Assembly: GCA_937872895.1 (NCBI GenBank)
Contig: CALMUP010000035.1
Location: 62,001-126,000 of the forward strand
Direction: 5' to 3'
DNA length: 64,000 bases
Origin: an uncultured Verrucomicrobiota bacterium
GTDB lineage: Bacteria > Verrucomicrobiota > Kiritimatiellia > CAIVKH01
How positions within the stretch are numbered: the stretch's first letter is position 1; every line of letters begins with the position of its first letter. Shown in pieces: positions 18,603 through 31,869 of this stretch. The notes under the pieces were generated by a model. That model searched no databases. It saw nothing but the letters and a program-made list of their open reading frames with translations, and was not told where the DNA came from. The position numbers and the translations under genes are program-made.

Positions 18603-19535
18603 TCAGTTCGCCAGGATGTTGTAGCGAATGGCCGCGGTCGCGTTGGTCACGCGCACGTCTTCGGACCAGTCGAACTTGGCCACTTCCACGCGGCCGTCGT
18701 CCCGGATATAGCTGCCCGGCACCATGTGCCGGCTCATTAGGCGGAACGTCTTCATAAACGACGGATCGCGGGTGGTAGGACTCGACTTGCGGGCGAAGAT
18801 CAGGATCGCATTGTCCAAAAGGAAGCTCATGCTCGCCGCCTTGCCCTCCGGCGCGGTGTCGTAAACCATGAAGCTGGTCTTCACCTCGGGCTTGCCCATG
18901 AAAAGCTGGCTGGCGATGTCCTCATTCGGCACGGCCAGGCTCGCGCCGCCCTTGCCGGTAACAAATCGTCCGCGTACCTTGTCCGCGTTCTTAAAAATAC
19001 GGAAGGCATTGGCCCCGAAAAGCACTCCGACCGACATGAACGAACCATAGGTCGCGTTCTTGATGACGGTCAGGATGGCCTCATCGATATCGGCGACCGG
19101 ATCGGCGGAACTGTTCCAGGTCTTGTTCGTGCCGGCGCCCACCGCTTCAAGGGCCAGGTCAATGACCTTCTTCTCGTGCGACAGCGCGGCGACTTCCGCC
19201 ACGGCGGTTGCACCTTCTTTCAGGACATCCATGATTTCCGCGCCTTCCAATTGCTCCAGATTATCCACCGGATAATCCAAAGCATGGGGTTCGCAGTTGT
19301 AGCTGTTGTCAGTGGCTTCGAAGCGAAGCTGGGTCGCCTGACCGCCGACGGCCCGAAGGGTATCGGGAATCCGGAAGCGGTTCTTTTCGGTATAGACCTT
19401 GTAGCGCCCGGTCATCCGGGACACCGGAACAGTTGGCGCAAGAAAGTTGGCGATGGGCTGGATCGAATCCTGGGCCACGCCCTGCGCGTATTCGCGAAGG
19501 GTCGGATTGCTGGAAAATTGAGCGAGGCGGTTCAT
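18603..19535 (-). CDS. Phage major capsid protein
   Basis: 310 residues. Features of the E-like/HK97-fold capsid family are visible: an early APTVPVSRMTGRYKVYTE, then HALDYPVDNLEQLEG, KKVIDLALEAVG, GVLFGANAFRIFKN and the late MSFLLDNAILIFARKSSPTTRDPSFMKTFR strand region. It sits directly after scaffold and decoration genes. The length fits a capsid protein without an N-terminal delta domain, which agrees with a separate scaffold gene. Confidence 0.85.
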   Translation of the reverse strand: MNRLAQFSSNPTLREYAQGVAQDSIQPIANFLAPTVPVSRMTGRYKVYTEKNRFRIPDTLRAVGGQATQLRFEATDNSYNCEPHALDYPVDNLEQLEGAEIMDVLKEGATAVAEVAALSHEKKVIDLALEAVGAGTNKTWNSSADPVADIDEAILTVIKNATYGSFMSVGVLFGANAFRIFKNADKVRGRFVTGKGGASLAVPNEDIASQLFMGKPEVKTSFMVYDTAPEGKAASMSFLLDNAILIFARKSSPTTRDPSFMKTFRLMSRHMVPGSYIRDDGRVEVAKFDWSEDVRVTNATAAIRYNILAN

Positions 19536-20010: not shown

Positions 20011-20562
20011 TTACTCCTTGGAAAATTCTTTTTCAGCGCGGGAAAAAGCGATGAGGAACGGGACGCCATCGGCCTTGGCGATTTCATGGGCACGGTTGCG
20101 GATGCGCACCGCGACCGAAGCATCGTGGGGACTGGATCCGGTGGCCAAGGTCTCGACCGTGCGGTCGATGGCGGCCAGTCGGTTGCGAAGAGGAATAGTC
20201 CGGGTTTCGGGAGGCGTTTCCACCGACGCCGGAGCGGCGTCAGCCAGCCGGTTGCGCAAGGCATTGAGCGCCTCAAAGGCCACGCTGCGGTTGGTCAACA
20301 TCTGCTCCTTCCAAAACGGGATGCTCGCCTCGTCAATGACTTCGGCGAAGTCGGCCAGATCGCGGTTGGTCAGCTTGTCCTCCATCTCGACCGCATCGGT
20401 CAGGAGCCCCTCGTACTTCTCCTGCAGATTGGCCACGAGGTTCACCAGGACGGTGATCAGTTCGATATCGGAAGCAGTCGCGGGTAAATCGAGCATCGAT
20501 TTAATCTGAGCCAGGTCGACTTGCTGATCCTGCTCCGGAGCTTTGAGATTGTCGTTTTCCAT
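20011..20562 (-). CDS. Probable head scaffold, like the C-terminal part of Mu gpI
   Basis: 183 residues, acidic and helical. The segment IKSMLDLPATASDIELITVL resembles the conserved start of the scaffold half of Mu I-type proteins (LGLPADATDAE...L). Next come a coiled-coil region and FWKEQMLTNRSVAFEALNAL. In Mu the scaffold is the C-terminal domain of the protease protein; here it is a separate gene, while the protease domain is fused to something else (23086-24882). Confidence 0.65.
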   Translation of the reverse strand: MENDNLKAPEQDQQVDLAQIKSMLDLPATASDIELITVLVNLVANLQEKYEGLLTDAVEMEDKLTNRDLADFAEVIDEASIPFWKEQMLTNRSVAFEALNALRNRLADAAPASVETPPETRTIPLRNRLAAIDRTVETLATGSSPHDASVAVRIRNRAHEIAKADGVPFLIAFSRAEKEFSKE

Positions 20563-20641: not shown

Positions 20642-23089
20642 TTAGTTACGGATGGCGGACATGGCTTCTTCGACCCGGCGGTCGTAGTCGGTTTTGATGC
20701 CAGTCGGCCTTTTTGCCCGTCGCTTGGATGCCCGCCGGGCTTGTTCGTTGTATTGGACCGTACCCAGTGCGGCGAGCACGGCGTTGTAGGTCTGGGCTAA
20801 CGCGGTTCCGGAACGCGGCATGGCTCCGAAGATGCCAGAGTTGCCGGTGGTCATCAGACCCAGGCCCAACGCCTGCGATACCGGGCCGATACGTTCCTCG
20901 GGAAGATCGCGCCCGGTGCTGCGCTTGAAGGCATCGGCGCGACGTTGATCTGTGGTCTTTTCGGTACCCACCCACGGCAACGCCGCACGCCCTTCCGGCG
21001 ACCAAATGCCGGTTCCGCGTGCCTGCGCGACGGCCCGGGCGGCGTCGTAGGCGTCCGACTTGTCGGTGCGACCGGACAAGTCGCGGTAGTGGATGTCCAC
21101 CAAGCCTTCCTTGATCAGCTTCTTGTTCACGTCCACGGCGGGGATGACTTTGCCGACGTAGGGAATGCGAAGAAGGTTGTCGAACGGCTTGGGCAACGTT
21201 TCGACGACACCCAGTTTGCGGCCGTGTTTATCTAGGCCGCCGGCCTTCGGGTTGGAGTCGGACACAACCCGGACATATTGCCCCGGCTTGATTAACTCCT
21301 GAATCCTTGCGGCGGCGACGTCGCCCAAATATTCCGGCGGTTTCTTCGGCGTGGCTTTCAACTCCGGTGCATTGATATCAAGCATCCGGACGCCCTTGGT
21401 GGGATTCTTGTCGGTGAAGATGGTATCCCCGTCATAGGCATGTGAAGTCCGTTCCACCGAGGAACGCTTGCCAGTCTTGATCGCGTCGCCGATTTGCCAG
21501 TTCAGATACGCCGCGGCGGCGGGAGCGAAGGTCCACAATCCTTTCCCGGCCATGTTCTGCGGTTTGGAGGCAGCCAGTTTCTCCAGGGCTTGTTGGGCCT
21601 TGGCCGGAGAAAGTTCGCCACGGGCTTTGGCGTCCATGATGGCGTCGTATCCGGCACGGTACGCGCCCACCTGCGCATGGTACGCCGCAGTACCATATCG
21701 GGTCTGCTTTTCAAGCGGGTTGCCAGTGGTGCCCACCACACCGGCCAACAACGTTCCCACGATGCCGCGCGGATCGTCCACTGGATAGCTGAACGGCTTG
21801 CCGTCGCGGATCGCTTGGGCGGCCTGCTGTTGGTATTTGGAAATCTGCTTTTGGTCGTAGGCTTCCTTGGCGGTGAAACCCCCGGCCACATAGCCCGCCT
21901 TCTTCAGGCCGGAAATCGTATCGGCGCGAAGAGCGGTTCCCTTGGTGATGAGTTTGTCGGCGACCGCGTTCAACCGAGCCGCGCTCCCGGCGCTTTGACG
22001 GGCGGCGTCATCGACCGCCCAAAAGGCATCCGCTGCCTTGCGGTAGAGGCGCCCGGCATCGGGTGAACCGGCCAGCGATGCCTTGTGGGCATCGTTTAAG
22101 GCGGAAGTGGCTATATTCTGCAACTGTATCTTTTTGCCGGCGGCAGCGCTTTTGATCGCACTGGCCTGCGCCCGCATCCGGGCCGCGTCATCGATAAATC
22201 GCTGGGCGGTCTTCAGGTTTTTGGGTGCGCTGATGGCCTTGCCCAACTCCTTCAGCGAGGAGCCGGTGAAATCCGAAAACTTCGTATAACCGGCATGGGC
22301 TTTTTTGAGACCAGCCGCGATGGTCGGATTGAGCTTCCCATTGATCCACGTACCAGCCTGGCCCAGCCGGTCATCCACCATCTTCAATCCTTGTTTGGCT
22401 CTTCCCAGCGCGGACAGGCCACCACCTCCCGGCAAGGCTTTGAGCAATGCGCCGCCGTACTGCCCGACGGCTTTGAGAGCGCCCATAGAACCAACATACC
22501 CGGCCAATTGGCTGCCCATAGCCAGCGCCTTGTCGGTATAGGGATTGATTGTCGGATTCGCCATGCGGTAATCATCGATCACGGACTGCGAACCGAAACC
22601 AGCCACGGTGGCAATCGCACCGGCATGTTTGCCGGCGGCGGTACGCGCCAGCGACGTACCTTTCCACGCCGCGCCGAGTTTGGAGGCAACGCCGATACCC
22701 GCAGCGGCAAGGAGCGATTCCCGACTGACCGTGGCGGCAGCACGGGAAAAGGAATACTCCGGTCCCTGGTACTGACTTGATTGGGTGATTCCTAGTTTGT
22801 CGGAGAGACCAAACGACAACGTGTTGGCGGCGATGGATGCTCCGCCTCGCAACCCTTCCATGAAGCCGCTTACCGCCGCCGCCAGCACGCTTTGATTGGC
22901 TGGTGCTGGACGAACATTGGTAGAAGACGGCGATGGAGCCGTAGTCCCGCCAGATGTGGAGCCTTTTGATTTGCCGCCACCACCGCCACCACCACCGCCT
23001 GAGCGCATTCTGGCGAACATCGCTTTGCGTTGCGCGTCTTCCATCTCGCGGGCGCGGGCCGGCATGGCATTGACCAAGTAAAAGCTCAT
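20642..23089 (-). CDS. Large phage protein with N-terminal motif and C-terminal thermonuclease domain
   Basis: 815 residues. It opens with the recurring element motif (MEDAQRKAMFARM, 16-28, after N7) and a nine-glycine run. Residues 60-540 are Ala/Gly/Lys rich with several hydrophobic helices, resembling internal or membrane-inserting virion proteins. Residues about 544-700 form a staphylococcal-nuclease-like domain: AYDGDTIF, RMLDINAPE, DKHGRKLG and a late GLVDIHYRD. The start overlaps the upstream stop (ATGA). A virion-carried nuclease cargo is a reasonable inference, with processing at the motif possible. Confidence 0.75.
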   Translation of the reverse strand: MSFYLVNAMPARAREMEDAQRKAMFARMRSGGGGGGGGGKSKGSTSGGTTAPSPSSTNVRPAPANQSVLAAAVSGFMEGLRGGASIAANTLSFGLSDKLGITQSSQYQGPEYSFSRAAATVSRESLLAAAGIGVASKLGAAWKGTSLARTAAGKHAGAIATVAGFGSQSVIDDYRMANPTINPYTDKALAMGSQLAGYVGSMGALKAVGQYGGALLKALPGGGGLSALGRAKQGLKMVDDRLGQAGTWINGKLNPTIAAGLKKAHAGYTKFSDFTGSSLKELGKAISAPKNLKTAQRFIDDAARMRAQASAIKSAAAGKKIQLQNIATSALNDAHKASLAGSPDAGRLYRKAADAFWAVDDAARQSAGSAARLNAVADKLITKGTALRADTISGLKKAGYVAGGFTAKEAYDQKQISKYQQQAAQAIRDGKPFSYPVDDPRGIVGTLLAGVVGTTGNPLEKQTRYGTAAYHAQVGAYRAGYDAIMDAKARGELSPAKAQQALEKLAASKPQNMAGKGLWTFAPAAAAYLNWQIGDAIKTGKRSSVERTSHAYDGDTIFTDKNPTKGVRMLDINAPELKATPKKPPEYLGDVAAARIQELIKPGQYVRVVSDSNPKAGGLDKHGRKLGVVETLPKPFDNLLRIPYVGKVIPAVDVNKKLIKEGLVDIHYRDLSGRTDKSDAYDAARAVAQARGTGIWSPEGRAALPWVGTEKTTDQRRADAFKRSTGRDLPEERIGPVSQALGLGLMTTGNSGIFGAMPRSGTALAQTYNAVLAALGTVQYNEQARRASKRRAKRPTGIKTDYDRRVEEAMSAIRN

Positions 23090-24882
23090 GGGTTCATGTG
23101 TTGGGCCATGATGCGTCTGGTCATGGCGAGGGAAAGTTGCCGGGCGGAACGGTCATATGTGGGTTTCGCCTCTACCGGCTTGGATTTCAATGCCGGTTTT
23201 GAAGGCGATTTATGAACCATGATGGTGCCTCCACCTGCACGAACAAGGAGTTGCGGGCGTACCTGGTTGATGTTGGATTCAAACTTGTTCCGGGCATCGG
23301 ATTTAACGCTGGCGGCATAAGCGGGTGCACTGCGAAATTTGGCGAACATCGCCTTCAATTGGTTCCGGCTCATCGTCCGATTGACCAGGGGAATCGGGCG
23401 CGACTTTAATTCATCCAAGTGCCGTTTAACTTTCCGGTAATCACTGCTGTCCCGGTCGGCGGATTGAATGGCTTTGATGGCGGCCTTCATCTTGCCGTGA
23501 TCGCCATCGGGATAAAGTTGGGCGGCATAGAAATCATCGCCACTCGCGATGGCGTCGATGTAGGCCGCCCGGCGGCGCTTTTCCGCGTTGTATTGCCGGA
23601 CCGGATCGGTTTTCGCTTTATCGGCGGCGTGCTTGGCCTTATCTGCTTCACGCTGGCGACGGGCGTTATCCTTGTCGGCTTGAATCTGATCGCGGATGGC
23701 CTGCTTGCGAGCGGCATCGGCATCCCGGATGTCGGCCCGGCGTTCGGATTCCTGCTGGCTGATCTTTTCCGCCTCGATGCGCCGATCAATCGCGGCCAGT
23801 TCCTGTTGCTGGGCCGTGCGCCGCTTTTCCCATGACGCCTGTTGCTTCTGGTATTCCTTTTCCTCGCCTTGAAAGTATTTGTCGAGGGCCCGGGTCTGCG
23901 CCTCTTTGGATTTGTACTGCTTTTTGATGTTTCGCTTGATCGCGTTCAGTTCTTGTTGACGCTGCAGGTTGATCGCCTTGGCCTTGTTGGTTTCCCGGAT
24001 GATCTCACCAGCGTTGCCGCCGGACGCCATGACCTGGCGCTGCACCTCGCGAACATCGATTTGATCAAAGGTCGTGCGCAAGGGCGGCTGACCAATATCG
24101 CGGCTCTCCACGTAATCGCGTTCTTTCTGCAAATTGTTCAATCGGGCTTCGTGATCGCGGGCATAACGGGGTGAAGAACTCGGCGCACTGCTTTTCCCAC
24201 CACTCCCACCACCGCCGCCCCCTCCGCCTCCACCGCCCATTCTTGCGAAGAATGCCTTACGTTGCTCCTCGGTGAGGCGGCGGTCGGTGCGCGGACTGTA
24301 GCCGTCGCTGAGTCGGGCGGCGTTCATGAGCAAAAGATCCCCATGCATTCGAATACAAATCGCCGGTGATGTAATGGGTATTGGCGGCGGCGCGAAGCGC
24401 ATGGGGATTGTAGTGTCCGCATTGGACAAAGGGAAAAGGCCTTTGATGTTCGGGTCATTGGTGACCGCGCAATTCATCAGTTTCAACGGTCGGATGCGGT
24501 CGTCGCCCAGCAGGGCGCAATCGGTGGAGCGCCATACCGGTGAGATGAAGCGGTATCGGCCACCTTCAATGGATTTCTTGCCCAGATCGGACCAACGGAT
24601 TTGCGCCCAGATTCCGTTCGGGCGTTTTTCCAAAGCGACAATCCAACCGGCGGCAACACTTGGCTTGTCCACGTCCAGCGACTGGTGATCAAAGTCAATG
24701 AGCACACCCGGCCAATTGGGTTGTTTGCTGTACTCTTCGAAGCTGCGCACGATGGAGCCAAGCGCCTCGTCATCGAGGACCTGCAGCAAGCCGGTCGGCT
24801 TATGCGGCCATTCACCGGGAACGGCGATGTGAAACCAACCGTCCTCCGGCAAGGTGAATCCATGACAATACGATGCGCTCAT
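23086..24882 (-). CDS. Mu gpI-like prohead protease fused to Gly-linker and helical cargo
   Basis: 598 residues. Residues 1-160 match the Mu I-protein protease: IDFDHQS (62-68), AAGWIVALEKRPNGIWAQIRW, and GGRYRFISPVW with the family serine S114. At N187 a motif copy begins (LTEEQRKAFFARM, 203-215), followed by 11 glycines. The next 270 residues are a long charged helix (Lys/Arg/Gln/Asp). A degenerate motif, MSRNQLKAMFAKF, is at 504-516. Instead of the usual scaffold, this protease carries a cargo-like tail. It is coupled to both neighbours by ATGA overlaps. Confidence 0.82.
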   Translation of the reverse strand: MSASYCHGFTLPEDGWFHIAVPGEWPHKPTGLLQVLDDEALGSIVRSFEEYSKQPNWPGVLIDFDHQSLDVDKPSVAAGWIVALEKRPNGIWAQIRWSDLGKKSIEGGRYRFISPVWRSTDCALLGDDRIRPLKLMNCAVTNDPNIKGLFPLSNADTTIPMRFAPPPIPITSPAICIRMHGDLLLMNAARLSDGYSPRTDRRLTEEQRKAFFARMGGGGGGGGGGGSGGKSSAPSSSPRYARDHEARLNNLQKERDYVESRDIGQPPLRTTFDQIDVREVQRQVMASGGNAGEIIRETNKAKAINLQRQQELNAIKRNIKKQYKSKEAQTRALDKYFQGEEKEYQKQQASWEKRRTAQQQELAAIDRRIEAEKISQQESERRADIRDADAARKQAIRDQIQADKDNARRQREADKAKHAADKAKTDPVRQYNAEKRRRAAYIDAIASGDDFYAAQLYPDGDHGKMKAAIKAIQSADRDSSDYRKVKRHLDELKSRPIPLVNRTMSRNQLKAMFAKFRSAPAYAASVKSDARNKFESNINQVRPQLLVRAGGGTIMVHKSPSKPALKSKPVEAKPTYDRSARQLSLAMTRRIMAQHMNP

Positions 24883-27800
24883 TTCCGGTCCGTCTGCTGA
24901 ATAGGTGATGGTTTCGCGCCGGGTTTATTGGGTAGTTGTGGTTGGGCTCCCTTACGCCACTGTCCAATGTCGATGTAGCCTTGTTCACCCGGTTTCGGAC
25001 CGTAAAACACCGGACCACCCGGATAGGCTTCGCGTGGCGCATAGCCGCCGCTGGGTGTGCGCGGTGCTTGGGCGGGATAACTTCCTGCTCGACTCGGCGA
25101 AATACCACCGCCACTTACCGAGCGCTTGATCAACGTGGGCAAGGACGATGCAGAACCGCTTTTCACATAGCTGGCGGGATAAGCGGAAAATTCAGCAGGA
25201 CGTTCGTTCCAGAACCGCACCCCCTGAAAACCATCTTTGCCGAATGTGCTGTGGGCAACCCAACCTGGCATCAATCCGGCGGCCTGAAGTATCTTGAGCC
25301 CTTCGGAATAGAAAGAAGACTCCAACGCGCTGCGTTTGGTTTCATAGTTCTTGCTGCTGGTGTTCCCTGAGACGGCGGGCGCAATCATCTTGTACAGTTG
25401 ATCGACTGCTTTGGGGTCGGCAAAAAATGCCGATGGATTTTCCCGAAACGGTCGCAACAACACATCCATTTGATAGGCAATACCGCCTTGTTCGTTGGGA
25501 AACATGGATTTGAAACTCTCAAAGAGTTGATCAAACCGTGATAAGTTCATCGTGCGCGACGGTCTTTCTGAACCCGGCAACCCGACGCCTTGATCAATGC
25601 GGATCATGTCGGTACGCGTGTACAGCGGCAGAGTTGATGTTGAGATCGGCGCACGTGAAACCGTGGATGGTCCAGGTCTCGACTTTGCGAAAACGCCTCG
25701 CCCGCCGGGACCACTTGACTTGGCGAACATTGCTTTGCGTTGCTCGTCGGACATCGGACCGGCATTACTGATGAGGAAGTGGCTATTGGCAACCCTGACG
25801 GCATTTGAAACCAGCCGAAGACCGGGCGGCAGAAAGGCGGGCGGGATCGGACGGTTTTCCGGATTGGTATCGGGATAATGTTGGGCGATGTAATCGGCGA
25901 TCTCCTGTTCCGAAACCGGCGGTAGCCCTTGTTTCGCCCGACGCGGGTTTTCCACGATTCGGATGTAGTCAAGATAATCATCCGGCGTCTGAACCTTGAT
26001 TCCACCGGTCTCACGATAGGGTCCCAGATCGGCGATGCCTACCGTGGACGGGTTCAGCGATGTTGATGTACTTCCTGTTTTCGGGTTGTACGTCATGGGG
26101 GCTGGATTTCGCTTCGATGGACCCAATGTAGCTGGCCGCACACGTGATCCAGGCTTGAACGAACCGCCGCCCGTCCCTCCCATCTTGGCAAACATCGCCT
26201 TACGTTGCTCGTCGGACATGGGACCGGCGTTGCAGAGTACTACCGATTCGTTCACCGCCGCACGGATGAGTTGCAGTGCGGAACGGTTTCCGATACCGCT
26301 TTCGCCAATGACATCAGAGATCGAGCGCCACGGATCCTTAACCATACGCGGCGAAATCGCATCGAGATCCGCCCGCCGGGCATAGTCGAGCAGTTGCGCC
26401 CGCCGACTGCCGGATTCCCTGGCCGCTTCGGATCGGAAAATATCACCGGTGCGTGAGGGCGGAATGGTATCGACGCGCGGTGCGACCTTGTCCAGCCAAC
26501 GCGTTGCTTCGACATCGGTCGGTGGATAGCCTCGTGCCCGGGTTACCCGTTCGGCGATTTTATCGTAGGTGCGGTAGATATCATCGCCCACGGAGCTTCC
26601 AGCCGGTTCCAACAGCGGCTTGAACCGTTCGGCATCCCGGCTCATTTGTTCGAGCACCTTGTTGAAATGCTTCTGCGCGGACATATGCTGGGTCAACGCC
26701 TTCTGGGTGCGAGCGTTCTTTACACCGGCGGCGAATAGGCCGAGCGCGGCCACGCCGAGGGCCGCATCGACCCATTTGTTGTCGGTGTTCATCCGGGCCA
26801 ACGAGATGCCGTCCAAACCTTCTTCGATTGCCGATGAGACGAATAGATCAAATGGGGTCAGATCGCTATGAATGCCGATCTGAGCATCACGCACTGCTCG
26901 ATCATTGCCTTCTGGCGTCACATACATGACCGGGTTTCTGGCCGGACCGCGTTTGCCGCCTCGTGCCCCGCCGGTGTAACCGCGGGCGGCTCCGCCTCCA
27001 CCGCCCAGTTTCGCCATCACGGCCTTGCGTTGGTCATCGGGCATTTCTGACACGGACCGACCGCTATTCGAGATCAATCGGCCATACTCGTCGAGCCCCA
27101 CCTGTTGCTCGTAGGATTTGGCATCCCGCCATTCAGGACTTTGAGGCGTCAACTGGCTACTCGGGATATAGGGTCGACCGGCTTGCACCGCCTGAGCCTG
27201 CCGCGATTGTTCCTGCGTCAACAGATTCTGGTACATCGCTTGATTCGGGCCGGGAATCGACGCCAATCGTGCCAACTCCTCGACATTGGTGTTGCGTACG
27301 GGAACATATTCCACGGGCGTAATAGGCAATGACGACTGAACTGCGGGCGTCGATGGCGCGGCGACGGGTGCAAGCGCTGCCGGCGTCGCCACTGAAGGGA
27401 CTGCCATAGTCGGTGCGCCTCTGGCGGACGGAGTCGCAACCGGGACGGACGCCGCGTTGGGCGATGGCGAATTATTTGCGGCGGGTGCTGGTGTTGACGG
27501 CGGAGGTGTTGCCGTAGCTGCCGGTGTAACCGGGGGCGGCACCGGCTGGACCGGAGCGCTGGCGGTATTCACCCGTGCTTGGGCCAACTTCGCCATGTTT
27601 TTGCCCCATTGTTCCAGCCAGGCTTTGTTGTCCCGTTCCATCTGTCGAATGGCATCGGGTCCGGTGTACCGTTTACTTGGTTTGGGCGGCATGGCTTTCA
27701 TCATATCGTACTGCTGCTGTTTGCTGTTGCCGCCATAGGCCGCAGCCATCAGTTCAGGACTCATGGTCAGCTTGTTGCCCATGACCTGGAAGGAATCCGA

Positions 27801-28328
27801 ATGGGATCGCGAGGTCGAGGTCGTGCCCGAATCTGGACCTCCGGAGCTCGAAGAGCGTCCGCCGCTGCCGCCTTTCAGTTTGGCGAAGATGGCGCGGCGT
27901 TGAGCATCCGAGACGGAACGGTTGGTCATCACGGATTTCAACGAGGGATACTGGGCGACCAGATTACTCCATGCCTCGGGATTGCCATCCTTCAGCGATT
28001 GCAGGGTTGCCACATCGTTGTGGGCATAACTGATATTGCCCTTGGCGAAGGCGGAGGATCCGGCGGTGTAGGTCAACCATTCGCCTTGGGACGGGTCCGC
28101 CTTGGGTGCGAACCGGGTCGCGCCGGCGAGATCCCCGGCCTGTCCCTGTTTCACGACATGAGCACCAACACCAGACGGGGTGCCGCGGCCGGCATGGGGT
28201 CGTCCGGTGGCCCGCATCGAGGCGAAGATGGCCCGACGTTGTGCATCGGTCATCGGAGAACTGGAATTGCAAATAGGCGTGGCATGGACCACGCGGATGG
28301 AATTGGACAACAAGCGGAGAGTATTCAT
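24879..28328 (-). CDS. Polyprotein-like phage protein with five copies of the QRKAMFAK motif
   Basis: 1149 residues. Motif copies begin at N21, N136, N421, N700 and N855; each is an Asn followed by variants of M-S-D-E-Q-R-K-A-M-F-A-K and usually a Gly-rich run. They divide the protein into segments of about 115, 285, 280, 155 and 295 residues. Segment 2 has a long Pro/Ala linker (255-335). Segment 3 has a hydrophobic stretch (VDAALGVAALGLFAAGV). The final segment has a compact helical part and a Pro/Gly tail. No known domain is recognised. It is coupled to the portal gene by ATGA and to the protease gene by ATGA. Confidence 0.8.
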   Translation of the reverse strand: MNTLRLLSNSIRVVHATPICNSSSPMTDAQRRAIFASMRATGRPHAGRGTPSGVGAHVVKQGQAGDLAGATRFAPKADPSQGEWLTYTAGSSAFAKGNISYAHNDVATLQSLKDGNPEAWSNLVAQYPSLKSVMTNRSVSDAQRRAIFAKLKGGSGGRSSSSGGPDSGTTSTSRSHSDSFQVMGNKLTMSPELMAAAYGGNSKQQQYDMMKAMPPKPSKRYTGPDAIRQMERDNKAWLEQWGKNMAKLAQARVNTASAPVQPVPPPVTPAATATPPPSTPAPAANNSPSPNAASVPVATPSARGAPTMAVPSVATPAALAPVAAPSTPAVQSSLPITPVEYVPVRNTNVEELARLASIPGPNQAMYQNLLTQEQSRQAQAVQAGRPYIPSSQLTPQSPEWRDAKSYEQQVGLDEYGRLISNSGRSVSEMPDDQRKAVMAKLGGGGGAARGYTGGARGGKRGPARNPVMYVTPEGNDRAVRDAQIGIHSDLTPFDLFVSSAIEEGLDGISLARMNTDNKWVDAALGVAALGLFAAGVKNARTQKALTQHMSAQKHFNKVLEQMSRDAERFKPLLEPAGSSVGDDIYRTYDKIAERVTRARGYPPTDVEATRWLDKVAPRVDTIPPSRTGDIFRSEAARESGSRRAQLLDYARRADLDAISPRMVKDPWRSISDVIGESGIGNRSALQLIRAAVNESVVLCNAGPMSDEQRKAMFAKMGGTGGGSFKPGSRVRPATLGPSKRNPAPMTYNPKTGSTSTSLNPSTVGIADLGPYRETGGIKVQTPDDYLDYIRIVENPRRAKQGLPPVSEQEIADYIAQHYPDTNPENRPIPPAFLPPGLRLVSNAVRVANSHFLISNAGPMSDEQRKAMFAKSSGPGGRGVFAKSRPGPSTVSRAPISTSTLPLYTRTDMIRIDQGVGLPGSERPSRTMNLSRFDQLFESFKSMFPNEQGGIAYQMDVLLRPFRENPSAFFADPKAVDQLYKMIAPAVSGNTSSKNYETKRSALESSFYSEGLKILQAAGLMPGWVAHSTFGKDGFQGVRFWNERPAEFSAYPASYVKSGSASSLPTLIKRSVSGGGISPSRAGSYPAQAPRTPSGGYAPREAYPGGPVFYGPKPGEQGYIDIGQWRKGAQPQLPNKPGAKPSPIQQTDRK

Positions 28329-29584
28329 CGCATGCTCCTCAGGGGTAATGTTCGTTGACGGGCCGAAGCCAAGGAGACGACTCCCCGATTGGTGAGTACG
28401 GGCGCGGGGGTAACCTGTGCAGGTTCACCTCCGGGCGGTGCATCCATCAACTCCAACTTCAATCCTAGTTTTTCTTCGAGCTGACCTTGTTCAATCCGAT
28501 AGCCGGACCATGACAAGCCGGAAGCCGCTTCGATGATTTCTGAGAGGGTTTCCTGGGGTTGCGGCAAATCGTACTGGAAGTAAACGGCCACCGGGTAACC
28601 AGGAAAAAAGGCTTGGAGGACCGGCCGGTCGATATGCCGTTGGAACACCTCGGAGATTTTGGCCGCATCGGCACGGGCCAGTCCGATCAGAGTTTCGCTA
28701 TGCGCGTTGCCGGCCAAAGTGCCGCTGCCGCTTTGGGTCAGCATGGTCAAAAGTCCGCCGGTCGCGGCCATGACAATCTGCTTGTCGGCGTAATCGATGC
28801 GCTCGAAGTACGGCATTTTCGACCGGGCGGCTAGGTCGGTGATCTTCACGTCGGCCCCGTTGGGCAAGTAGCCGCGAAGGTTGCTGGTCACATTTTCGGC
28901 AAGTGTCAGGTATTCCTGCTCTTTTTCCGGCGTGGTGCCCGGAGGGCCAATGACAAAGATGGATTGGTTCGCACCGTTTTCCAACGCGATATCCCAGTCG
29001 GCCAGAGCCAGTTGTTTCGAGAAGAAATGCCGACCGATGGATTTGAACAGAGGATCGCCAGGATGAAATATCACGAGGTCGCGTTCGTCCACCGGTTGGC
29101 CATGATGTACACCCGGTTTTGATTCGGGATTGAAATACCAACGTTTCCCCTTGGTGTCGTAAATCCAGTACCAGGGCGGGATATGTTCCAGCCGGGCGAT
29201 GAGCGGTCCGTATCCGGTACGAACTTTTTCAAGATGGGAGTGTCCAGAGAAAATCCCCAAAGCTATTTTTTCCACTGCCTCTTTCAGGTTCTCGATCCGA
29301 TCATAGGCGTAACGAAGAACATCCGCCTGTTCCTGTGCCAGTACGGGATCCGCCGTCTCGACAATGCGTATTTCCCAGTCGAGGGAGTTGATATGCGACA
29401 AGCGTTTGGCCACTGCCGAGGCAACGGTTACGTCGGTTTGAACCATGTGGTGCCAGAACCACTGGAGGTCGGCCAGATCGCCCCGATTGGCCGATTCTTC
29501 CATGGCGACAATACGAGCCATCGTCAATCCTCGGAGAGGATTGTAATGGTCGCGCCAGTTAGGTTGTGGACGGTAATTGGCCAT
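28325..29584 (-). CDS. Portal protein, Mu gp29-like (DUF935)
   Basis: 419 residues from ATG 29584 (MANYRPQPNWRDHYNPLRGLT); in-frame ATGs at 29596 and 29635 are alternatives and none has a good ribosome site. DUF935 features are clear: DLQWFWHHMVQTDVTVASAVAKRLSHINSLDWEI, YDRIENLKEAVEKIALGIFSGHSHLE, WYFNPESKPG and the TLIGLARADAAKISEVFQRHIDRP region. It forms the ring through which DNA is packaged. The C-terminal tail is Pro-rich and ends LTNRGVVSLASARQR, a possible degenerate version of the element motif. Confidence 0.88.
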   Translation of the reverse strand: MANYRPQPNWRDHYNPLRGLTMARIVAMEESANRGDLADLQWFWHHMVQTDVTVASAVAKRLSHINSLDWEIRIVETADPVLAQEQADVLRYAYDRIENLKEAVEKIALGIFSGHSHLEKVRTGYGPLIARLEHIPPWYWIYDTKGKRWYFNPESKPGVHHGQPVDERDLVIFHPGDPLFKSIGRHFFSKQLALADWDIALENGANQSIFVIGPPGTTPEKEQEYLTLAENVTSNLRGYLPNGADVKITDLAARSKMPYFERIDYADKQIVMAATGGLLTMLTQSGSGTLAGNAHSETLIGLARADAAKISEVFQRHIDRPVLQAFFPGYPVAVYFQYDLPQPQETLSEIIEAASGLSWSGYRIEQGQLEEKLGLKLELMDAPPGGEPAQVTPAPVLTNRGVVSLASARQRTLPLRSMR

Positions 29585-29803
29585 ACATGGCGGCATACAC
29601 GAACGGCGGGGGTGGGGCAATGAAAGCACAGGCATAGCTGGCGACCCAAAATAATAGTATTTCGATACCGAAGATGCTGGCCGATGTGCCGGTAAGGTGA
29701 TGTAATCAAGGCCATGAGGAATAGCTGCAAGCTCAAGACGCGTACTCGCGGGCAGTCACATCATCCAGCGCAGCAGCTGCAATAAAAGTCATTAGGAGTA
29801 GAA

Positions 29804-30595
29804 ATGAATAAAGAAACCAAACCCTTAAAAGTCTTTGCAATCGTCAGTATCGTAATTGCCGTACTATTTATGACTTTTGTAAAACTTACGGTAGTCAATA
29901 AAAATAATGACGAAGAAGAAGCGAGAAAAATGCTTGCTGAAATCCAAAAAGAGTTTGGGGGATTAGAGAAAGCTATAGACAGTGGTGATTTGGAAGCAAT
30001 CGCCAGCCATAAAGCATCAGATCAGCAGGTCGCACAGGGGGAATATGGCGAATATGAAAAATTCACGAAAAAGACGATCAATTTATTCGCTGAGCTACGA
30101 CAGGCATATCAATTAGAGTTAGAGGCCATTGGTTGGAGCAAGATTCTAGATCCAGAAAGATTGAGCCGAGATAATGGGCTGCATGAAAGTAAATATATAA
30201 TTGTGCGTGCTAATCAAATCGTCGATAAGTATATACGAAAATCCAATGAACTTATTGATGATATTCCAAATCTTGTGGATGAACTCAAATTGTCGGAATC
30301 GAGCAAGGCAGAATTTAAAAGTAGCTATGTTGAGGGTTTGAAGGAGAGTAAGGTAAGAATGCAGTACCAGTGGAGTCTGGAACAGCAAGTCGTCAAAGAG
30401 TTTGAGAAGATTCTACCTTTGTTTGAAGACAAAAATAGCTGGAGCGTCGAAAATGATCAGTTTCTATTTGTGCAAGACAATGACGTGGAATTATTCAATA
30501 ATGCAATGAAGACGATTAATGATTTGGTAGAAAAGCAGTTGGAGTCACAAAAACAGGGACTGCGAGAAGCCCAAGAAGCATTGAATATAAACTAA
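29804..30595 (+). CDS. AT-rich membrane-anchored helical protein, probable phage moron
   Basis: 263 residues, encoded opposite to all neighbours between the portal and terminase genes, with AGGAG before ATG 29804. An N-terminal membrane anchor (VFAIVSIVIAVLFMTFVKLTVV) is followed by about 230 charged, almost entirely helical residues. Base composition is much more AT-rich than the flanking structural genes, a sign of recent acquisition. An independent gene inserted in a late operon is the definition of a moron; such genes often alter host behaviour or exclude other phages. No family recognised. Confidence 0.75.
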   Translation: MNKETKPLKVFAIVSIVIAVLFMTFVKLTVVNKNNDEEEARKMLAEIQKEFGGLEKAIDSGDLEAIASHKASDQQVAQGEYGEYEKFTKKTINLFAELRQAYQLELEAIGWSKILDPERLSRDNGLHESKYIIVRANQIVDKYIRKSNELIDDIPNLVDELKLSESSKAEFKSSYVEGLKESKVRMQYQWSLEQQVVKEFEKILPLFEDKNSWSVENDQFLFVQDNDVELFNNAMKTINDLVEKQLESQKQGLREAQEALNIN

Positions 30596-30606
30596 GCCGT
30601 CATCGT

Positions 30607-31869
30607 TTAATAATTGATCCGTCTAGCTCTTGAAATTAGCAGCGGACTGTGTCGTCGCGCCTGAAAAATTCTTGCCGCGCCCGCCAGTTTGAACTGAAAC
30701 CGCTCTGAGTTGGCTAGGGCCAAAGCGATGACGCAGTCGTCATGGTAGCCACTTGGTGCGTTGTAGGTGATCGAGCCGTTCGGTGTGATCTCGTACTCGT
30801 ACCGCTTGAGTTCGTCGGTCACAACGGACCAGGTGGCGGGCCAGCCGATCTGCCGCTGTTCGATGGCGACGATGAGTCGCTGGATCAACTGGGCCTTGCT
30901 CAGGTTGGTCAGCTTGACCGGCTGGATCCGGGGCAGGACGTGTCGGAGGTCGTCGTATACCGGATCCCCGATGCCGGTGGCGTCCATGACAAGCAGCCCG
31001 TTGTGCTTGCGACAGAAGCTGACGATCCGCTCCTTCTGGATCGGCCAATCGAGATGATTGAATCGTTCTATGTCGAGGCACTGGCCGGTTTTCCGGTCCA
31101 TGGCGATCAGCACCGTGTGGTCGGTGTGCTTGGCCAAATCGCAACCGATGGCCACATCGTCGGTACGAGTAGCCGGGCCGGCCAGCAGGCAGGCATCGAC
31201 GTTGCGGAACACCCCGGCGCTGTCCTCGAGGAACTCGGCCATGTACTCCTGCCGGAACACGTCCGCCGGCAACGACCGCCGCGCTTCCTCCCACTCCTTG
31301 ACCGGAAAGTACGGGTTGGTGTTGCTCGCGAAGTGGAACGAGGCGTAGTCGGTTTCATTCGGATCATTCCCCCGCGTGTGCAGGTCGTAGAACCAGCCGC
31401 GGCCGTTCGGGGTGGAAATAAGCGTCGCCCAGCCCATCGTTTGGGCCAGGGTCGGGCGGATGGTGTAGTGCCACACGTCGGCCGGAATCCGCGCAGCCTC
31501 GTCGACCACGATGCCTTTGAAGCCTAGACCAAGGATCGACTCAGGGTTATCGGCGGACAGGAATAGAATGCGGGATGTGCCCACCGCGCCGTCCAGCTCG
31601 GCCCGGATAGGATTGCGGCCGGTGATGCGGACGAAATCCCCGGCAATGTCCCGAAGGGCCTCGACGCCGCGTTCAGCAATGAAGTAGGTCGGCGCGATCC
31701 AGGCGTAGTCGCCCGCCGCCTCCCCGCCGGCGCGGTCTAGGATTTCGGCGGCAAGGCAGAGCGTCTTTCCCCACCGGCGTCCGCAACAGACGATTCGGAA
31801 ACGTCGATCACGGGAGAGGTGGATGCATTGCTGGCCTTCATGCGGATCATATCGGGAAGCGAGAGCCAC
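30607..31869 (-). CDS. Terminase large subunit
   Basis: 420 residues from a GTG at 31869 with an excellent AAGGAGG seven bases upstream. Walker A is CCGRRWGKT (28-36); Walker B is IVVDEA (120-125). ISTPNGRGWFYDL is the coupling motif. The RNase H-fold nuclease has D244 in AIGCDLAKHTDH, D296 in LLVMDATGIGD and a late HDDCVIALALA. It pumps DNA into the prohead and cuts it. The gene overlaps the small subunit by 133 bases and converges with the AT-rich gene on the other strand. Confidence 0.93.
   Translation of the reverse strand: MALASRYDPHEGQQCIHLSRDRRFRIVCCGRRWGKTLCLAAEILDRAGGEAAGDYAWIAPTYFIAERGVEALRDIAGDFVRITGRNPIRAELDGAVGTSRILFLSADNPESILGLGFKGIVVDEAARIPADVWHYTIRPTLAQTMGWATLISTPNGRGWFYDLHTRGNDPNETDYASFHFASNTNPYFPVKEWEEARRSLPADVFRQEYMAEFLEDSAGVFRNVDACLLAGPATRTDDVAIGCDLAKHTDHTVLIAMDRKTGQCLDIERFNHLDWPIQKERIVSFCRKHNGLLVMDATGIGDPVYDDLRHVLPRIQPVKLTNLSKAQLIQRLIVAIEQRQIGWPATWSVVTDELKRYEYEITPNGSITYNAPSGYHDDCVIALALANSERFQFKLAGAARIFQARRHSPLLISRARRINY

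Follow-up and report, generated by a model that had tools for sequence, protein, structure and literature searches.

Why should three consecutive genes of one prophage repeat the same short peptide eight times? The prophage lies on the minus strand of the window, by which we mean the whole 64,000-nt stretch of contig CALMUP010000035.1 that was analysed; its host, an uncultured Verrucomicrobiota bacterium, has a genome of 3.87 Mb in 51 contigs. The three open reading frames (ORFs) encode proteins of 1149, 598 and 815 aa, which contain five, two and one copies of the motif, respectively. The motif is made of two parts: a hydrophobic-x-Asn triplet (hereafter LxN) and a tag, comprising the helix MSDEQRKAMFAK and a glycine linker. 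We consider it fairly probable that these parts form a single element, in which the triplet would be cut by the phage's own prohead protease and the tag, kept on the product, would direct that product to the head.

The first-pass annotation had listed copies of the motif at N21, N136, N421, N700 and N855 of the 1149-aa protein, N187 and N501 of the 598-aa protein and N7 of the 815-aa protein, and all eight were found at these residues. In what follows, coordinates refer to the minus strand unless stated, and a slash is placed after the Asn. In the 1149-aa ORF, copy 1 (28215..28274) reads PICN21/SSSPM-TDAQRRAIFASM, copy 2 (27876..27929) VMTN136/RSV-SDAQRRAIFAKL-GG, copy 3 (27006..27074) LISN421/SGRSVSEM-PDDQRKAVMAKL-GGGGG, copy 4 (26181..26237) VLCN700/AGPM-SDEQRKAMFAKM-GGTGGG and copy 5 (25716..25772) LISN855/AGPM-SDEQRKAMFAKS. 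The 598-aa ORF contains copy 6 (24223..24330), LLMN187/AARLSDGYSPRTDRRL-TEEQRKAFFARM followed by a Gly run, and copy 7 (23335..23388), PLVN501/RTM-SRNQLKAMFAKF. Copy 8 (23006..23077), LVN7/AMPARAREM-EDAQRKAMFARM and a Gly run, is at the N-terminus of the 815-aa protein. The N, Q, A and A of the motif are invariant across the eight aligned copies. The core regular expression matched eight times in the three proteins, as compared to 0.04 matches expected from composition-shuffled versions. Copies 4 and 5 are identical at 11 of 12 residues, four of which are specified by different codons, bearing out the earlier remark that residues are kept while codons differ. The glycine run, which had been described as the usual sequel, is clear after copies 2, 3, 4, 6 and 8 (5/8), weak after copy 5 and missing after copies 1 and 7.

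The 598-aa ORF (23086..24882) encodes a Mu-type prohead protease domain, a coiled coil and two tags. Residues 60-154 matched PF10123 (74.5 bits against a curated cut-off of 25.2; E 1.4e-20), confirming the Mu-type protease that had been noted in this gene set, and the ORF also matched phrog_328, a head maturation protease. In the alignment of protease relatives, the DxDH motif with its His (H66) is invariant, as is S114, the Ser of R-x-x-S; judging by family membership, this His and Ser are probably catalytic. According to the AlphaFold2 model, a confidently predicted protease domain extends from about residue 9 to ~150-154, where it ends in the sequence PLSN. Disorder begins at residue 155, and is followed by a lone helix at 205-214 (the tag of copy 6), further disorder at 215-240 and a coiled coil at 244-494. 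After a short disordered stretch, a second lone helix at 506-517 (the tag of copy 7) leads into the C-terminal piece.

The PLSN that ends the protease domain is the predicted release site, PLSN154 (24421..24432), identified by its conservation in relatives. All four of its residues are invariant in an alignment of 11 protease relatives, and P[LIVF][SATC]N occurs at the end of the protease domain in 58 of 58 matched protease ORFs, the matching pattern itself demanding the P and N. With very few exceptions, LxN closes the protease domain across the loci; Akkermansia phage DTMo-2021a, a cultured relative, has PLVN/R there. In locus L094, a tag follows this site immediately (PICN/RGPMSDSQRKAMFAK). 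Many of the proteases also start with a related sequence, either M-N-(x)-L-I-L-N-R ('MNLILN/R') or M-x-x-L-L-x-N.

The same triplet is concentrated in the scaffold. The 183-aa scaffold gene of the window (20011..20562) encodes five LxNR sites (N66, N91, N104, N127 and N156) and no tag, as compared to 0.16 LxNR expected and a maximum of three in 20,000 shuffled sequences. In other phages, a homologous scaffold part is joined to the C-terminal side of the protease (E 1.8e-25 for the match to L071); upon finding this homology to the Z-type scaffold, we dropped the coiled coil of the 598-aa protein as a candidate scaffold. The Z-type scaffold is thus a separate gene here and part of the protease ORF in other phages of the group. 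When all ORFs of ~60 loci were ranked by LxNR, scaffolds of either arrangement came out on top, with four to six sites per ~190 residues. Pooled, separate scaffolds contained 63 LxNR versus 2.4 expected, and fused scaffolds 62 versus 2.3. Such scaffolds must be degraded by the prohead protease, so this enrichment counts towards LxN being a protease site. No LxNR was found in 6607 residues of the bodies of nine tagged third proteins (the type of the 815-aa protein), and broad-class LxN sites numbered 6 there against 16.7 expected; this is what would be predicted, since the tagged third proteins should survive.

To define the residues linked to the tag, 30 tag copies were pooled from 13 related loci, and the last Asn before each was taken. 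These Asn had L, I, V or M at −2 in 30/30 cases, versus 130/512 (25%) for Asn in the same proteins (p ~1e-18, an optimistic value since the phages are related and the copies therefore not independent, though 29 of the 30 contexts differ). All 17 internal tags of the MSDEQRKAMFAK type (type 1) had an LxN no more than 22 residues upstream, as compared to 11% of background positions. The residue that follows the Asn is mostly Arg, Ser, Ala or Trp; since the Asn is invariant and the next residue variable, we place the cut after the Asn. In the AlphaFold2 models of the 598-aa and 815-aa proteins, the LxN falls within disordered linkers. The 1149-aa protein contains 12 broad-class sites, against 3.6 expected from shuffling. 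Overall, because LxN ends the protease domain, leads many of the proteases, is enriched in scaffolds and is depleted in the bodies of third proteins, it is very likely the sequence at which the phage's own Mu-type prohead protease cuts, as judged from sequence comparisons.

The second part of the motif appears to have a different role. In the AlphaFold2 models, the tag appears, with modest confidence, as a solitary helix flanked by disordered linkers. The tag is all that is shared by the coiled-coil protein, the helical protein with the SNase domain and the polyprotein pieces. A screen of all loci for shared peptides returned mainly homologous repeats, and the tag was the sole confirmed short peptide common to head genes; a Pfam scan of the motif peptides yielded no match. 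Because the 183-aa scaffold and the end of the protease domain have LxN without a tag, the tag is not the signal for cutting. Conversely, tags at ORF starts lack an LxN in L038 and in the third ORF of L094, which is expected if what matters is a mature N-terminus near the tag. Each released piece is predicted to keep the tag at its new N-terminus. With its short helix and flexible glycine linker, the tag resembles a peptide for docking or anchoring, and we lean towards its being a signal by which pieces are packaged into the head or retained there. The first-pass annotation had offered a processing site, a packaging tag or a mobile linker for the motif as a whole. The first of these is well supported for the hydrophobic-x-Asn part and fails for the MSDEQRKAMFAK-Gly part, for which the second provides the best fit.

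In the mechanism that we propose, the prohead protease would cut after the Asn of [L/I/V/M]-x-Asn. It would free itself at PLSN154 during assembly and shred the LxNR-rich scaffold, which could then leave the head. In the tagged polyprotein, the coiled-coil protein and the third protein with its SNase domain, it would also cut immediately ahead of every tag, such that the helix M-S-D-E-Q-R-K-A-M-F-A-K and its glycine linker would stay at the N-terminus of every released piece. The tag would then direct the piece to the head, or hold it there, at the inner shell, the portal or the core, and the cut pieces would remain in the head as separate tagged internal or ejected proteins.

Other roles for the tag were weighed against this mechanism. 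The helix might instead serve self-assembly, the tagged pieces binding each other to form a core with no address on the shell or portal. One tagged protein is a long coiled coil beside the protease, and short helices on flexible linkers are able to cross-link; however, the tag is predicted with modest confidence as an isolated helix that has no packing partner in the monomer models, and we regard this role as rather unlikely. Less likely again is that the protease requires the MSDEQRKAMFAK helix as an exosite or docking element, motif and cut site forming one recognition unit. The proximity of LxN to all 17 internal type-1 tags and the presence of tags in the protease ORF itself would suit such an element. 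By contrast, the five LxNR of the scaffold have no tag, in most phages no tag directly follows the PLSN of the protease end, and the ORF-start tags of L038 and L094 have no LxN. The abundance of tag-free LxNR in the scaffold led us to reject docking on the protease as the leading idea for the tag.

A mobile domain linker seems improbable; under this reading, recombination would have spread tag-Gly units as joints between domains, and the long proteins would stay uncut. The protease ORF of L036 (9531-11987) contains, between the protease domain and the coiled coil, a duplicate of the tag and of ~60 residues from the start of the third protein. Tag modules therefore do move, which lends the linker idea of the first-pass annotation limited support; the pieces into which the 1149-aa protein divides also lack relatives elsewhere among the loci. 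A linker nevertheless leaves unexplained the invariant hydrophobic-x-Asn, its match to the end of the protease domain and the 26-fold excess in scaffolds. Finally, a short core with glycine runs could deceive the eye, but chance similarity or a low-complexity artefact is refuted by the count of 8 copies against the shuffled expectation and by the preservation of the motif in further loci.

Several observations weigh against the combination of an LxN protease site with a retained, head-directing tag. In addition to the relatedness of the pooled phages, a Foldseek search with the protease model ranked T4 gp21 first but without significance (E 0.24). The conserved LxNR of the scaffolds could be structural instead. 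Broad-class sites also occur inside the major head protein, the portal and the tail spike, so folding would have to shield them. Finally, protease ORFs of L040, L043, L044, L046 and L047 that share the coiled coil have another peptide at the position of the tag, and the tag sequence is therefore not universal. Between the LxN and the Gly stretch, this variant peptide is TLNDKQRRYLHW in L040 and L043, is similar in L047, and is EWIGGxPWG in L044 and L046.

The 1149-aa polyprotein (24879..28328, from the ORF list) occupies the position of Mu gpF, directly behind the portal gene. Its five LxN-tag units predict pieces comprising residues 22-136, 137-421, 422-700, 701-855 and 856-1149. The protein had no Pfam or PHROG match, and the pieces, after removal of the first 45 residues, had no relative among the other loci. 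The 815-aa third protein (20642..23089) consists of the tag, a Gly linker, a long helical body and an SNase domain. In its AlphaFold2 model, the tag forms a helix at residues 18-29, flanked by disorder and followed by the helical body. The SNase domain (residues 543-703) was recognized by PF00565 (E 4.1e-10) and by Foldseek similarity to staphylococcal nuclease (E 2.5e-6). Relatives of the protein occur in 11 loci, whereas a tblastn search against annotated phages returned no match. The SNase domain is missing from the relatives in L036, L038 and others, and L094 has an endonuclease-like match (phrog_452) instead, indicating that the nuclease of the third protein has been exchanged. We consider the 815-aa protein a candidate ejection protein.

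In function, three known systems come nearest: the T4 capsid targeting sequence (CTS) with gp21, gp245 of SPN3US and the signal of P1 DarB. The T4 protease gp21 cleaves at L/I-x-E. The LxN rule shares with it the hydrophobic residue at −2 (30/30 here) and differs in the cut residue itself, which is Asn in all copies and Glu in T4. As in the T4 CTS/Alt/gp21 system, internal or ejected proteins of the head bear a short N-terminal peptide that is coupled to a site for the prohead protease. The CTS is removed, whereas the tag falls on the part C-terminal to the predicted cut, which would be kept; moreover, a single polyprotein contains several tags. The scaffold is predicted to be cut up by the same protease, much as gp21 reduces the T4 core proteins to short fragments (PMC5694885). 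In the SPN3US/phiKZ system, the prohead protease (gp245 in SPN3US) cuts after A-x-E, and many head and ejection proteins are processed, with propeptides that contain several sites (PMC10052503, PMC5694885). A three-residue motif for the processing of head proteins is thus common to both, the present one being LxN and belonging to the Mu-type protease family; the parts of those sources that were available describe no shared helix tag. For phage P1, the N-terminal 30 residues of DarB are reported to be sufficient for directing a foreign protein to the head (PMC9024508); as described there, this is one protein with no repeated copies, whereas the present tag is repeated across proteins.

The Mu-like phages themselves provide the comparison in gene order. 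Mu and D3112 have the same protease family (30% identity) and a similar order of genes: portal, F position, protease, scaffold and head protein. In the window, unlike the I/Z and F arrangement of Mu and D3112, the scaffold is a separate gene and the tagged polyprotein fills the F position. The protease domain of D3112 ends in PLARR, versus PLSNR here, and the scaffold part of D3112 is free of LxNR; the LxN rule is therefore lineage-specific. Polyvalent proteins and MuF-linked injected effectors are multi-domain proteins encoded near head genes that are thought to be packaged and injected (PMC5512222). A polyvalent protein combines several effector or enzyme domains per chain; by contrast, Pfam and PHROG recognized none in the 1149-aa protein and the SNase domain only in the 815-aa protein. 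What sets these phages apart from the closest systems is the predicted Asn specificity, the keeping of the tag on the product and the repetition of the tag in a polyprotein. A Leu-x-Asn specificity appears to be unrecorded: the literature searched, in which subscription papers were mostly outside coverage, contained no Asn-specific prohead protease, no phage head polyprotein and no earlier description of the motif or cleavage rule, though such a description may exist.

The Mu-like protease family occurs in 56 of 193 genomes of the same class. Apart from the window, 12 prophage or viral loci carry the motif: loci retrieved around a subgroup of these proteases, and one IMG/VR contig (L094). The refutation proposed in the first-pass annotation, that a profile search would turn up no other cases, fails. 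A tagged ORF of these loci usually has a single copy, whereas the window has copies fused into a polyprotein. The copies lie in the ORF next after the portal gene, in the protease ORF downstream of the protease domain, and where the third ORF begins. When 84,980 species genomes were scanned for [DE]QR[KR]AMFA, 14 contigs were returned, of which 7 were genuine. The latter are labelled Lentisphaerae, Verrucomicrobia or uncultured bacterium, and in all of them the motif adjoins this protease; the hosts are probably of the class Kiritimatiellia or a neighbour. Matches in Serratia, Sphingobacterium, Acidobacteria, Proteobacteria and one Verrucomicrobia contig (L057) were rejected as chance, being in housekeeping or spurious frames with no LxN or Gly. 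A tblastn search with the 23-residue motif against annotated phages yielded no match. For the core, DNA-pattern scans of viral contigs returned L001-L003, three contigs in which other proteins contain DDQRKAMFA, and none when GG was added; these were not counted, as they have neither LxN nor Gly. The peptide (A)DDQRKAMFA lies at L002:1911-3383, L001:36-61 and L003:1686-1711 of these unrelated contigs; in L002 it belongs to the C-terminal portion of a head maturation protease from another family (phrog_15531). It possibly reflects wider use of the peptide, or chance.

A sister group carries a different tag, NRW[ST]DAARAASLAVRRAKA, which recurs in the 1871-aa protease polyprotein of genome G233 (L109), where each repeat unit is preceded by Asn, mostly in an LxN. 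This ORF (L109:2780-8392, G233:C105) encodes a Mu-type protease, a Cys-rich MuF-like stretch and five NRWSD..ARAA tag units, partly in tandem pairs joined by Gly, and represents a second tagged-polyprotein design. A common origin of this type-2 tag (WSDAARAASLAVRRAKA) and the type-1 tag was unsupported (hhalign probability 1.6%, E 0.032).

The remaining genes of the locus conform to a head module. The terminase gene is at 30607-31869 and that of the portal protein, of the Mu gp29 type (PF06074, E 9.2e-42), at 28325..29635. A 152-aa ORF separates the 183-aa scaffold gene from that of the major head protein (18603..19535; phrog_1005, E 9.1e-35). The portal protein contains VLTN/R at N416, ~20 residues from its C-terminus, a sequence not seen at the ends of the group's other portals. 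Between the portal and terminase genes, a 263-aa ORF on the opposite strand (29804-30595, +) had no PHROG match and looks like an inserted extra gene. A 780-aa, tail-fibre-like ORF on the minus strand of L047 (at 9361) contains many VSNS/LTNS/VVTN repeats, which differ from the head sites and presumably form a beta-solenoid. Elsewhere in the host genome, a more distant Mu-like protease (G000:C19:90573-90941, L005) indicates that there is probably a second prophage.

These data make a cleavage rule readable from genomes. From the rule, the form that each head protein of the phage group takes after processing can be predicted, and the specificity of Mu-type prohead proteases becomes directly testable through it. 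Whether the Mu-type phages of this group make the internal proteins of their heads in the form of tagged polyproteins is, in our estimation, evenly poised. One Leu-x-Asn protease would both destroy the scaffold and free the cargo, the presence of the tag deciding what stays and what leaves, and the sister lineage would apply the same logic with an unrelated tag and its 1871-residue polyprotein. If so, phage heads would possess a natural system for loading cargo, in which every polyprotein piece bears a genetically encoded tag; its use would be comparable to that of the T4 capsid targeting sequence, except that the tag stays on the cargo. Such a system would also reveal a polyprotein strategy inside the heads of tailed phages.

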